33,298 nt of DNA from Candidatus Caribbeanibacter nitroreducens (GTDB lineage Bacteria > Gemmatimonadota > Gemmatimonadetes > Palauibacterales > Palauibacteraceae), in NCBI GenBank assembly GCA_947581645.1, contig CANPVF010000036.1, forward strand, positions 1-33,298, given 5' to 3'. Of this stretch, positions 1,209-10,475 are shown piece after piece. The translations under genes were made by a program, and so were the position numbers. The notes below the pieces were generated by a model. That model was not told the origin of the DNA. It worked only from the letters and a program-made list of their open reading frames with translations, and made no database searches. Within the stretch, counting starts at the first letter, position 1, and each line of letters opens with the position of its first letter.

Positions 1209-5623
<4,415 letters not shown>

Positions 5624-5644: not shown

Positions 5645-6235
5645 TTATGTGTTCGTGCTCTGCGCGCCCCCGGCCGCGGCCCCGGCAGCCGAATCGCCGG
5701 AGTCCAGCAGGCGGCGCTGCAGGTTCTGCAGGCGGCGCCGGAGGGAGCCGTCCATGACCTTGTCCTCGAAGCGGACCAGGATCCCGCCGACGATGTCCTC
5801 GTCCGTCCGGAAGTTGGCCTCGACCTGGCGGTCCAGGAGCGACGAGAGCCGCTCGGTGATCTCCTCCCGGAGCTCGTCGTCGGGCTCCAGGGCCAGCGTC
5901 ACGTTGGCGTGCACCCGGCCGAAGCGCTCGTCCAGCAGGTCCCGGTAGGCCTCCTCGATGCGCGGAATGGAGCGCTGCCGCCGCTTGTCGAGGACCACCA
6001 GGAGGAAGTGGAGGAAGGGCTCCGGAACGCGGTCCGCGAGCACCTCTCGCAGGACCTCCTTCTTCCGACCCTCCGGGACGCGAGGGGTGTCCAGGAAGAG
6101 CCGGAACTGCCCCTCCTCGCGGTAGAGGCTCGCCAGCTCGGCCAGGTACTCTCCGTACGCCTCGGCGGCGTCCCGGCGCGTGGCCAGCTCCAGCAGGGCG
6201 CCGGCGTAGTTCTCGCCGACCGCGGTCTCGCTCAT
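5645..6235 (-). CDS. atpH: ATP synthase subunit delta
   Basis: Delta subunit (196 residues), which fastens the peripheral stalk to the top of F1. It starts MSETAVGENYAGALLELA, like the helical N-terminal domain of the family (NYAxAL near the start), and has FLHFLLVVLDKRR near residue 75 and the C-terminal signature DEDIVGGILVRFEDKVMDGSLRRRLQNL. Its ATG overlaps the atpF stop codon (ATGA at 6232-6235), pointing to coupled translation. A short Ala/Gly tail (GDSAAGAAAGGAQSTNT) is additional. Confidence 0.95.
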   Translation of the reverse strand: MSETAVGENYAGALLELATRRDAAEAYGEYLAELASLYREEGQFRLFLDTPRVPEGRKKEVLREVLADRVPEPFLHFLLVVLDKRRQRSIPRIEEAYRDLLDERFGRVHANVTLALEPDDELREEITERLSSLLDRQVEANFRTDEDIVGGILVRFEDKVMDGSLRRRLQNLQRRLLDSGDSAAGAAAGGAQSTNT

Positions 6236-6816
6236 CCGACCCGGTCGATGTAATCGCGCACCAGGCGCCGGTTCTCCTCACGGTCCATCTCGGACCGCAT
6301 CAGGCGCTCGGCGGCGGAGATGGCCACCTCGACGGCCTCCTGCCGGATCTCGCTGCGGAGCTTCTCGCGCTCGCGCTCCATCTCGCGGCGCGTCCGCTCC
6401 ATCATCTCCTCCCGCTCCTCGCGGGCCTCCTGCAGGATCTCCTCGCGGAGCCGCTCGCCGGCCTCCCGGCCCTCCTGCAGGATCTCCTGCGCCTCCTGGC
6501 GGGCCTTCTCCAGCTGGCGCTGGTGCTCCTCCAGCAGGCGGCGCGCCTCCTCCCGGTCCTCCCGGGCGGAGTCGATGGCCGACTGGATCTTCCTGCGACG
6601 CTCCTCGAGGCTCCCCGAGATCATCGGGAAGACCTTCCACGCCAGGATGCCCAGCGTGACGAGGAAGATGACCCAGGTCCAGACCACCAGACCCAGGTCC
6701 ACGGAGAAGATGGGGCTCCCCCCGCCCTCCTGGGCCAGCGCCGGATCGGCGGCGGCCAGCAGGACCAGCAGGACCGGCCCGGCCGCCGCGGCGATTCGTC
6801 GTGTCAGTGCTCTCAT
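6232..6816 (-). CDS. atpF: ATP synthase Fo subunit b
   Basis: Subunit b, the peripheral-stalk stator (194 residues). It has a hydrophobic N-terminus ending PALAQEGG, which looks like a cleavable signal peptide (1 to about 29), then a single membrane segment (about 42-62, LGLVVWTWVIFLVTLGILAW) and a long, highly charged coiled coil (about 70-180) rich in Glu, Arg and Gln. E. coli b lacks a signal peptide, but such a presequence is known in other bacterial phyla. It lies 5 nt after atpE and overlaps atpH. Only one b-type gene is present, so b is probably a homodimer. Confidence 0.95.
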   Translation of the reverse strand: MRALTRRIAAAAGPVLLVLLAAADPALAQEGGGSPIFSVDLGLVVWTWVIFLVTLGILAWKVFPMISGSLEERRRKIQSAIDSAREDREEARRLLEEHQRQLEKARQEAQEILQEGREAGERLREEILQEAREEREEMMERTRREMEREREKLRSEIRQEAVEVAISAAERLMRSEMDREENRRLVRDYIDRVG

Positions 6817-7207: not shown

Positions 7208-8230
7208 TCAATGTCCGTGTCGGATCAGCCCGATGAACACCGCGGTGAGCACCGTGAAGATGTAGGCGTGGAGGAAGGCCACGAAGATCTCGAGGAACAT
7301 GATGAACAGCCCCAGGACCAGCGCGCCGGCGATGGTCGTGATCCCCGTGGCGGCCGTGAAGCTCCCGTAGGTGATGATGAGGCCGAGCATGGCCAGGAGC
7401 ACGAAGTGTCCCGCGCTCATGTTGGCGTACAGCCGGACGGCCAGGGCGAAGGGCTTCGTCAGCTTCCCCAGCAGCTCCACCGGCGGCATGATGATCGCCA
7501 TCATGCCCTTCATCACCGGATGGAGGTCCTCCGGGATGGCGAAGATCGTCTTCGCGTATCCCTTCGGCCCCAGGGCGACGAAGCCGGCGTACTCGATCAC
7601 CAGCAGCGAGATGAAGGCCAGCGCCCCCGTGACCATGATGCTGGACGTGGCCGTGGCCCCGAAGGGCAGCAGGCCCAGCAGATTCGCGTACAGGATGAAG
7701 AAGAAGAGCGTCACCACGAAGGGCACGAAGCGCTCGCCGCCCTCGCCGATGTTCGAGAGGGCCACGTCGTCGCGCAGGAAGAAGTAGAAGGCCTCGAAGG
7801 CGTTCAGCACTCCCCCCGGCGCCTCTTCCCCCTGCTGCATGTCGCGGGCCTTCGCGGCCGCGTACCAGACGGTGACGATCGTGAGGATCGCCGCCAGGAA
7901 CAGGAAGACGATGTACTTGCTGATCGAGAGGTCGACGGCCAGCGGGCCCAGCTGCAGCGGGTCGAAGGCCAGGGCGTGGAGGTCGATGGTGGCGAACCCC
8001 AGGTCGATGGACTGGGAGTCCGTCACGTGATGGATCATCGTCTCCGTGCCCCACCCCTCGGCGTGGCCGGCCCCGTGGCCGGCGGCCTCCTGCGCCCCGT
8101 GGGCGGCCTCGGCGGCCTGTCCCCCGGCGTGCTGCGCCTCCTGCGCGGAGGACTCCGTGCCGTGCCCGGCCTCCTGTCCGCCGAGGGCGGCGGCGAGGCC
8201 GTTCCATGCTGTGAGAAGGAGCGGTGACAT
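7208..8230 (-). CDS. atpB: ATP synthase Fo subunit a
   Basis: Subunit a, the proton channel facing the c-ring (340 residues). The essential arginine is Arg266 in FALAVRLYANMSAGH, the most conserved stretch of the family. Hydrophobic helices begin near residue 104 and continue to the C-terminus (FLHAYIFTVLTAVFIGL). The first about 65 residues form a long hydrophilic extension rich in Ala, Gly, His and Glu (repeated AGHG/EAAHG-like units) preceded by a short hydrophobic start, so a cleaved signal and a periplasmic His-rich extension are possible. It lies 39 nt after the atpI-like gene, and a 125-nt gap separates it from atpE. Confidence 0.96.
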   Translation of the reverse strand: MSPLLLTAWNGLAAALGGQEAGHGTESSAQEAQHAGGQAAEAAHGAQEAAGHGAGHAEGWGTETMIHHVTDSQSIDLGFATIDLHALAFDPLQLGPLAVDLSISKYIVFLFLAAILTIVTVWYAAAKARDMQQGEEAPGGVLNAFEAFYFFLRDDVALSNIGEGGERFVPFVVTLFFFILYANLLGLLPFGATATSSIMVTGALAFISLLVIEYAGFVALGPKGYAKTIFAIPEDLHPVMKGMMAIIMPPVELLGKLTKPFALAVRLYANMSAGHFVLLAMLGLIITYGSFTAATGITTIAGALVLGLFIMFLEIFVAFLHAYIFTVLTAVFIGLIRHGH

Positions 8231-8269: not shown

Positions 8270-8704
8270 CTACGGGTCCGGCGGGGAGACCGGCGTCCAG
8301 AGATCCTCGTTCTCCTCGCTCTTCAGGGCCCGGACCAGCCAGAAGCCCTCGGCCCAGAGGAGCACGATCAGCGTCAGGCCGTAGCCGATCGCCGCCGGAG
8401 CCACGACGGCTCCCGTCAGCCACCCGACGCCCGCGATGGCTCCGAGCCCCGCGACGCGGGCCGTGATCCCGGCGATCCACACACGCAGGGCCCGTTCCCC
8501 GCGCCGGATCGTCCTCCACAGCGGCCAGAACGTGACCGTCTGGAGGCCCCAGGCCAGCAGGCATCCGGCCCACACGTCGGGGCCGGCCCCCCAGCGCCAG
8601 CTGGCGGCTCCCGATCCGACGAGGACCAGGGCCAGGCCGACCAGGGCGTACCCGGCGGGCGAGGACGTGAGACCGGCCGACCCGCCGCTCTCCTCAGCCC
8701 CCAT
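8270..8704 (-). CDS. atpI: AtpI-like membrane protein of the ATP synthase operon
   Basis: A 144-residue protein with about four predicted membrane helices (around 19-34, 45-60, 77-97 and 101-127). Position and topology match the AtpI / ATP synthase I family, which helps assemble the c-ring in some bacteria, but sequence similarity within that family is low and I see no diagnostic motif beyond the arginine-rich cytoplasmic loop WRTIRRGERALRVW. Its ATG overlaps the end of atpZ by 11 nt, so the two are surely cotranscribed. The assignment leans on context. Confidence 0.75.
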   Translation of the reverse strand: MGAEESGGSAGLTSSPAGYALVGLALVLVGSGAASWRWGAGPDVWAGCLLAWGLQTVTFWPLWRTIRRGERALRVWIAGITARVAGLGAIAGVGWLTGAVVAPAAIGYGLTLIVLLWAEGFWLVRALKSEENEDLWTPVSPPDP

Positions 8705-8969
8705 CGTCGTCCTCCCGGCGCTGCTCCAGCACCAGGTCCCGGTACATGGAGTAGAATCCCCCGACGAAGCCGATCGTGGCCCCGAGGATCACGAACAGGG
8801 GTCCCGTGCCGATCAGGCCGTCCAGGAGGTTCCCCAGCCAGGAGAACAGGGCGGTGGCGACGCCGATGGTGAGCCCGTGGCCGCCGTACCGGGCCAGCTG
8901 CCGGCCGGTGCTGGAGGACGACGAGCTGTCCTCCTCCGGCGCCGGCCCCGCGTCGCCAACCCTGTTCAT
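8694..8969 (-). CDS. atpZ: AtpZ-family membrane protein, first gene of the ATP synthase operon
   Basis: A 91-residue protein with a disordered Ser/Glu-rich N-terminus and two membrane helices (about 32-50 and 55-74). The pattern GVATALFSWLGNLLDGLIGTGPLFVILGATIGFVGGFYSMYRDL, read as two helices around a GTGP turn and ending GFYSMYR, is typical of the AtpZ/AtpI-type proteins found just before atpI or atpB. Members are linked to assembly of the ATP synthase and to magnesium or calcium transport, the latter less certain. A promoter and the Rex-like operator lie within 70 nt upstream, making this the operon's first gene. Confidence 0.85.
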   Translation of the reverse strand: MNRVGDAGPAPEEDSSSSSSTGRQLARYGGHGLTIGVATALFSWLGNLLDGLIGTGPLFVILGATIGFVGGFYSMYRDLVLEQRREDDDGG

Positions 8970-9005: not shown

Positions 9006-9034
9006 AGACTATCTGCTTGTGAAAATTTTCGCAA
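9006..9034 (-). promoter_or_regulatory. Predicted promoter of the ATP synthase operon
   Basis: On the minus strand TTGCGA (9034-9029) and TAGTCT (9011-9006) are separated by exactly 17 nt, a good sigma-70-type arrangement. Transcription would start near 8999, about 30 nt before the atpZ ATG at 8969; a GGAGGAG ribosome site lies in that leader. The -35 box lies inside the palindrome at 9017-9034. Confidence 0.6.
9017..9034. promoter_or_regulatory. Rex-like operator over the atp promoter
   Basis: TTGTGAAAATTTTCGCAA is an 18-bp inverted repeat matching the Rex consensus TTGTGAA-N4-TTCACAA at 13 of 14 fixed positions (the odd base is G for A in the right arm). Including the flanking C and G it extends to 20 bp with one mismatched pair. 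It covers the -35 box and most of the spacer, where a bound repressor would block RNA polymerase. Rex releases DNA when NADH/NAD+ is high. That family knowledge supports redox control of ATP synthase; binding itself is inferred. No rex gene lies in the window. Confidence 0.6.
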
Positions 9035-9191: not shown

Positions 9192-10475
9192 GTGCTCGGC
9201 ACCCTCGCCCTCTTCGGCTTCCTCCTCTTCATGTCGGCGTTCTTCTCCGGCTCCGAGATCGCCGTCTTCTCCCTGACGGAGGCGCGGGCCCGGATGCTGG
9301 TCGAGGAGGAGCGCCGCGGGGCCGAAGCCCTGCTCCAGCTCAAGAAGGACCCGGAGCGGCTCCTGGTCACCATCCTCGTGGGCAACAACGTGGCCAACGT
9401 GGCGGCGGCGTCGGTGGCCACCTACCTGGCCACCCGGGCCCTGGGCTCCGCCGGCGTGGGCGTGGCCACCGGCGTCGTGACCCTGCTCCTCCTGTTCTTC
9501 GGCGAGATCACCCCGAAGGGATTCGCCGCCGCCGAGGCCACCCGGATCTCGCTCTTCTCGGCCCCCATCCTCTCCTTCCTCTCCCGCGCCTTCTTTCCCC
9601 TGATCGCGCCGCTGAGCGCGGTGACCCGGGCGGTGATGCCCCGGGACCTCGGCGCCGCCCAGCAGATCACCGAGGGCGAGATCCGGACGATGACCCGCAT
9701 GGGCCACGTCTCCGGCGACATCGACGAGCACGAGCGGGAGATCATCGAGCGGGCGTTCCTGCTGGACTCGACCCGGGCGTGGGAGGTCATGACGCCGCGG
9801 GTCGAGATCTTCGCCTGGCCCGACGAGGCGCCGCTGTTCACGATCACCGACGAGCTGCAGACCGTGCCCTACAGTCGGATCCCCGTCTACGGCGACACCC
9901 TGGACGAGATCACGGGCGTGCTCTACCTGCGGGACGCGTACCAGGCGCTGATCGGCGGCCGGGACGACATCTCGCTGGGCGAGCTGGCCCTGGACCCGGT
10001 CTTCGTGCCGGGCTCCGTGCCGCTGGTGGAGCTGCTGCAGGACTTCCAGGCCCGGCGGGTGCACCTGGGGATCGTGGTCGACGAGTACGGCGGCACCGAC
10101 GGCCTGGTGACCCTGGAGGACGTGCTGGAGGAGCTCGTCGGGGAGATCCACGACGAGATGGACGTTCCGGAGGAGTCCATCGTGCGGCGGAGCCGGAGCG
10201 AGATCGTGGTGGACGGTTCGGCGAACCTCCGCGCGATCAACCACTTCTTCAACACCTCCTTCCCGCTGCTGGAGCACCGGTCGCTGAACGGCTACCTGCT
10301 GGACGACCTGGGGCGGGTCCCGCGGCCGGAGGAGACGTTCGAGCGGGAGGGCGTGAGGATCGAGGTGCTCGGCGCCACCGACACGCAGGTCACCCGGGCC
10401 CGGCTGGAGCGGCTGCCGGGCCGGGGACGCGCCGGCGGCGTCGGTCCGCCCCGCTCACCGGACAGGGAGGGCTGA
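9192..10475 (+). CDS. CNNM/CorC-type membrane protein (DUF21-CBS-CorC_HlyC)
   Basis: A 427-residue protein with the three-part layout of the CNNM/CorC (HlyC/TlyC-like) family. A DUF21 transmembrane region (about 1-170) holds MSAFFSGSEIAVFSLTEAR and FFGEITPKGFA, the latter around the conserved GE-PK turn. A CBS-domain pair follows (about 190-320; VMTPRVEIF, YSRIPVYG, VDEYGGTDGLVTLEDVLEELVGEI), then a C-terminal CorC_HlyC domain (about 335-410). Family members are linked to magnesium or cobalt efflux; older hemolysin names are misleading. The start is a GTG at 9192, 222 bp from atpZ in the opposite direction, and the next gene begins 4 nt after its stop. Confidence 0.9.
   Translation: MLGTLALFGFLLFMSAFFSGSEIAVFSLTEARARMLVEEERRGAEALLQLKKDPERLLVTILVGNNVANVAAASVATYLATRALGSAGVGVATGVVTLLLLFFGEITPKGFAAAEATRISLFSAPILSFLSRAFFPLIAPLSAVTRAVMPRDLGAAQQITEGEIRTMTRMGHVSGDIDEHEREIIERAFLLDSTRAWEVMTPRVEIFAWPDEAPLFTITDELQTVPYSRIPVYGDTLDEITGVLYLRDAYQALIGGRDDISLGELALDPVFVPGSVPLVELLQDFQARRVHLGIVVDEYGGTDGLVTLEDVLEELVGEIHDEMDVPEESIVRRSRSEIVVDGSANLRAINHFFNTSFPLLEHRSLNGYLLDDLGRVPRPEETFEREGVRIEVLGATDTQVTRARLERLPGRGRAGGVGPPRSPDREG

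Follow-up and report, generated by a model that had tools for sequence, protein, structure and literature searches.

A probable Rex operator within the promoter of the ATP synthase operon in Gemmatimonadota, conserved across the class and lost together with rex

The atp locus and its promoter

The window, i.e., the whole stretch of 33,298 nucleotides that was analyzed, carries on its minus strand an ATP synthase operon that begins with an atpZ-type gene and is flanked by a divergent neighbor of the CNNM/CorC type (Table 1). The source is a Gemmatimonadota metagenome-assembled genome, with its nearest named relatives among metagenome-assembled genomes of Gemmatimonadales/Gemmatimonadota, Palauibacter species included. 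The ATG of atpZ at position 8969 is preceded by the ribosome-binding site GGGAGGAG. A second, distant AtpB-like match in the source genome (G000:C138:25624-26040, 28% identity) possibly belongs to another ATPase.

Table 1. Features of the atp locus; coordinates refer to the window.
Feature	Coordinates	Strand	Remarks
Rex operator (predicted)	9017..9034	-	reads TTGCGAAAATTTTCACAA on the atp sense strand; kept in relatives
-35 box TTGCGA	9029..9034	-	doubles as upstream Rex half-site; TTG kept with or without rex
-10 box TAGTCT	9006..9011	-	17 bp from -35; TAnnnT kept at the same spacing
CNNM/CorC-type gene, divergent neighbor of atp	9192..10475	+	
atpZ-type gene, first in atp operon	8694..8969	-	PF09527
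144-aa ORF between atpZ and atpB (atpI position)	8270..8704	-	no Pfam hit
atpB, subunit a	7208..8230	-	PF00119
atpF, subunit b	6232..6816	-	PF00430
atpA, alpha subunit	3938..5623	-	PF00006 and PF00306
atpD, beta subunit	1516..2925	-	start set from TIGR01039 match; listed ORF longer

Upstream of atpZ lies the 18-mer TTGTGAAAATTTTCGCAA (9017-9034, read on the plus strand), which agrees with the Rex consensus TTGTGAAN4TTCACAA at 13 of the 14 fixed positions, as the first-pass annotation had noted. The palindrome, which can be extended to 22 bp (GCTTGTGAAAATTTTCGCAAGC), is imperfect because of one mismatch, a G for A at position 15. That annotation had further placed the site over the -35 box and spacer of a predicted atp promoter, and this position is borne out, since on the minus strand the operator spans the -35 box and most of the 17-bp spacer and stops 5 bp before the -10 box; the span of 9006-9034 originally given comprises the operator plus the -10 box. 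A chance match was thought unlikely, and the counts agree: the window holds no second match with three or fewer mismatches (expected number 0.11), and this site is the sole match with at most one mismatch, for which 100 shuffles of the sequence gave none.

Rex and its predicted regulon in the source genome

According to the Rex paradigm, the NAD+-favored form of the repressor binds DNA and NADH releases it. A single clear Rex gene, on contig C63, is present in the source genome (2.96 Mb, 96% complete), which answers the search for rex that had been proposed with the annotation. The encoded protein scores 262 bits against the NCBIfam model NF003995 (cut-off 126), matches Rex chains in the PDB at E 1e-47, and retains both the QVRKDLSxFG helix of the recognition region and the GAGKIG NAD motif. 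Pattern searches of the whole 2.96 Mb for Rex boxes with at most two mismatches returned four palindromic sites, located before rex, atp, nuoA, and a TetR gene, and the reversed control pattern gave no hit. Genome-wide, only the box that overlaps the start of rex is perfect, and autoregulation is predicted for this gene; the box at nuoA lies 26 bp ahead of the gene, just downstream of a plausible promoter. Further boxes before energy genes, another of the proposed checks, are thus found at nuoA, and also before rex itself. The predicted regulon of this genome amounts to about 3-4 sites, none of which is at cyd or hem. The remaining box, with one mismatch (G000:C42:1586-1603; L072 site 1501), precedes a TetR-family gene that adjoins an RND efflux pump and may be a regulon member or a chance match.

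Conservation of the atp box across the class

The atp-type pattern TTGCGN5TTTCACAA is present in 143 of 198 genomes of the class, while the reversed control gave two matches in total. In 113 of the 115 site-bearing genomes where atpB could be placed, the box is on the same strand as atpB and 442-1025 bp upstream of it, and conservation in related atp promoters, which had been left as a point to check, therefore extends class-wide at the same promoter position. The aligned promoter reads GC-TTGCGA-N17-TAnnnT, with the -35 box and the spacer filled by the operator. The TTTCACAA half is invariant in all 28 distinct training promoters, which were preselected for resemblance to the Rex box (at most three mismatches) plus TTGCG. 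Genomes that have rex but lack the exact pattern mostly carry close variants in the same place, with left halves such as TTGTG, TTGAG, TTGAA, or TTGCT and a mostly intact right half.

The half-site that overlaps the -35 box is imperfect in most genomes, unlike the boxes at rex, atpA, and many other genes, which keep TTGTG. At atp, the upstream half may be constrained to TTG[C]G by its second role as a promoter element. We tentatively read the class-wide atp operator as asymmetric, with a perfect downstream half TTTCACAA and a weak upstream half TTG[C]G that might give leaky, graded repression. If true, ATP synthase would be tuned by NADH and not switched off. Tandem Rex boxes occur upstream of atpB at several loci (L030, L036, L042, L027, L028, and L084), with a spacing of 33 bp in the Palauibacter-like genus g6 and of 34 or 56 bp in family f8.

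Loss of rex and of the atp box

Among the genomes with atpB, the atp site is present in 141 of 170 with rex vs. 2 of 19 without (Fisher p = 3e-10, shared ancestry ignored). A search with the full-length Rex protein upheld the absence of rex throughout the rex-less set except in G130, where a rex fragment lies close to the edge or a break of a contig; G130 was left out of the count because no atpB was found there. The losses of rex, which affect all six g27 members sampled, are spread over about 10 genera (about 15 genomes), and the box is gone as well; contrasts in the presence of rex and box are found even within genera (g6, g17, and g66). Since the site is absent in relatives that lost Rex, the link between Rex and atp is very probably real. 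There are exceptions in both directions. G121 (99% complete) has no detectable rex and retains a perfect atp-type box, and the rex-less G094 carries a variant box whose position relative to atp was not placed. Conversely, G060 has rex and no box, and G021 encodes a divergent Rex (36% identity) and has no box. Incompleteness of the metagenome-assembled genomes may explain some of these cases (G121, G060, and G021).

The box sits between the CNNM gene and atp, and the CNNM gene adjoins atp in a number of relatives, so that the box could control this divergent gene, instead of or besides atp. We regard this as improbable, since the atp box is also present where the fetched flank showed no CNNM gene (e.g., G029, G048, G051, and G057), its spacing to the atp -10 box is fixed, and the rex-less G024 and G058 have kept the CNNM gene and lost the box. 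CNNM control as the main role was rejected.

It is still less probable that the conserved sequence is a core promoter only, made up of the -35 box and an AT-rich spacer without operator function. TTG and TAnnnT are indeed conserved in rex-less genomes too; however, promoter spacers are normally not conserved. When the rex-less promoters were scored on the -35 and -10 boxes alone, ignoring the right half, 8 of 11 regions yielded a candidate between -900 and -650 (binomial p = 7e-5), with TTG, 17 bp, and TAnnnT at the same distance kept. Of the eight TTTCACAA bases, which are invariant in the preselected training promoters, only 2-5 are left in these promoters vs. 7-8 in genomes with rex. Because the promoter remains recognizable in the rex-less relatives but the TTTCACAA half is gone, the operator is separable from the promoter, having been lost where the latter persists, and the reading as a plain core promoter was rejected. 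Equally improbable is that a Crp/FNR-type regulator reads the site, even though the Rex box includes TGTGA-N6-TCACA, a core compatible with the Crp box: Crp-HTH matches in the source genome are marginal and partial (best 27.2 bits), its perfect box overlaps rex, and relatives that lack rex but encode clear Crp proteins (G019, G022, G024, G026, G119, G149, and G194) have no box, so that box presence does not track a Crp regulator and the co-loss follows rex.

Proposed control of atp by Rex and comparison with known systems

The site with its position, the presence of rex, a small set of boxes in the genome, the class-wide conservation, and the co-loss with rex were all computed here, and they make it highly probable that Rex, an NADH-sensing repressor, uses the site as its operator within the sigma-70-type atp promoter. 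The prediction, first made from the window alone, has withstood all three computational checks: the search for rex, the search for further boxes, and the test of conservation. The upstream half-site would serve also as the -35 box (TTGCGA), with the downstream half TTTTCACAA occupying the spacer. At high NAD+, a bound Rex dimer would hide the -35 box and block RNA polymerase, and upon a rise in NADH/NAD+ Rex would be released and atp expressed along with nuo and rex. Binding, repression, and release by NADH at atp are expected here by analogy with the Rex family.

Control of atp by Rex is of a kind already known from Streptomyces. In Streptomyces avermitilis, the Rex footprint at atpI extends from -50 to -22, over the -35 box, the operator in the atpI promoter is TTGTGATACGGTTCACGA, atpI transcription is higher in a rex mutant, and NADH lowers the binding of Rex to target promoters (PMC5355995). 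The earlier statement that atp operons belong to some Rex regulons is correct in the light of this example. Both systems have the Rex box over the -35 box and spacer of an atp operon and a regulon that includes nuo and rex, with relief of repression by NADH demonstrated in S. avermitilis. They differ in phylum, and in the present case the -35 half has the sequence TTGCG, atpZ is the gene that follows the box, and the small regulon of the source genome lacks cyd and hem sites.

The Rex box of Staphylococcus aureus is TTGTGAAWWWWTTCACAA, and the targets of Rex in Bacillus subtilis are mainly fermentation and nitrate-respiration genes. Such genes are also the main Rex targets in S. aureus (PMC5355995), and the B. 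subtilis box is WWTGTGAANTNNTNNNCAAW (quoted in PMC5355995). The core of both boxes is the same as here, and the B. subtilis consensus likewise tolerates one degenerate half.

Comparative work on Rex regulons was reportedly carried out by Ravcheev and colleagues in 2012. We found no published work on Rex in Gemmatimonadota in the open-license literature. Two elements are new, the phylum and the asymmetric operator form that is fused to the promoter throughout the class. Direct control of ATP synthase by Rex, as known in Streptomyces, would thereby extend to a phylum that is poorly cultured. The findings suggest that control of ATP synthase by NADH belongs to the core features of the class and is not a curiosity, and the genera without rex and box provide a ready-made natural experiment.

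Rex boxes at other loci in relatives

Four genomes from two families have a second Rex box 33-90 bp before a separate atpA gene (L184 in G048, L187 in G051, L188 in G057, and L195 in G054). This box is TTGTGATWAWTTTCACAA or the close variant TTGTGATTATTTTCACAA and has the symmetric form TTGTGA...TCACAA. As these genomes have two atp loci, each with a Rex box, they give independent support for the link between Rex and atp.

In family f7 (L182 and L193), Rex boxes are located 39-45 bp before multiheme cytochrome c7/c3-like genes, which possibly represent an alternative complex III operon. The complete genome G030 contains 25 Rex-like boxes, vs. 2 to 5 in most relatives, and its Rex regulon seems greatly enlarged. 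The neighbors of these boxes are mixed, including rex, a GH3-type gene, a thyX-like gene with an intein, an FAD oxidase, and others, and many of the ORFs are small or uncertain. The intein-interrupted thyX-like gene lies downstream of a Rex box at L171 (1360-2499).
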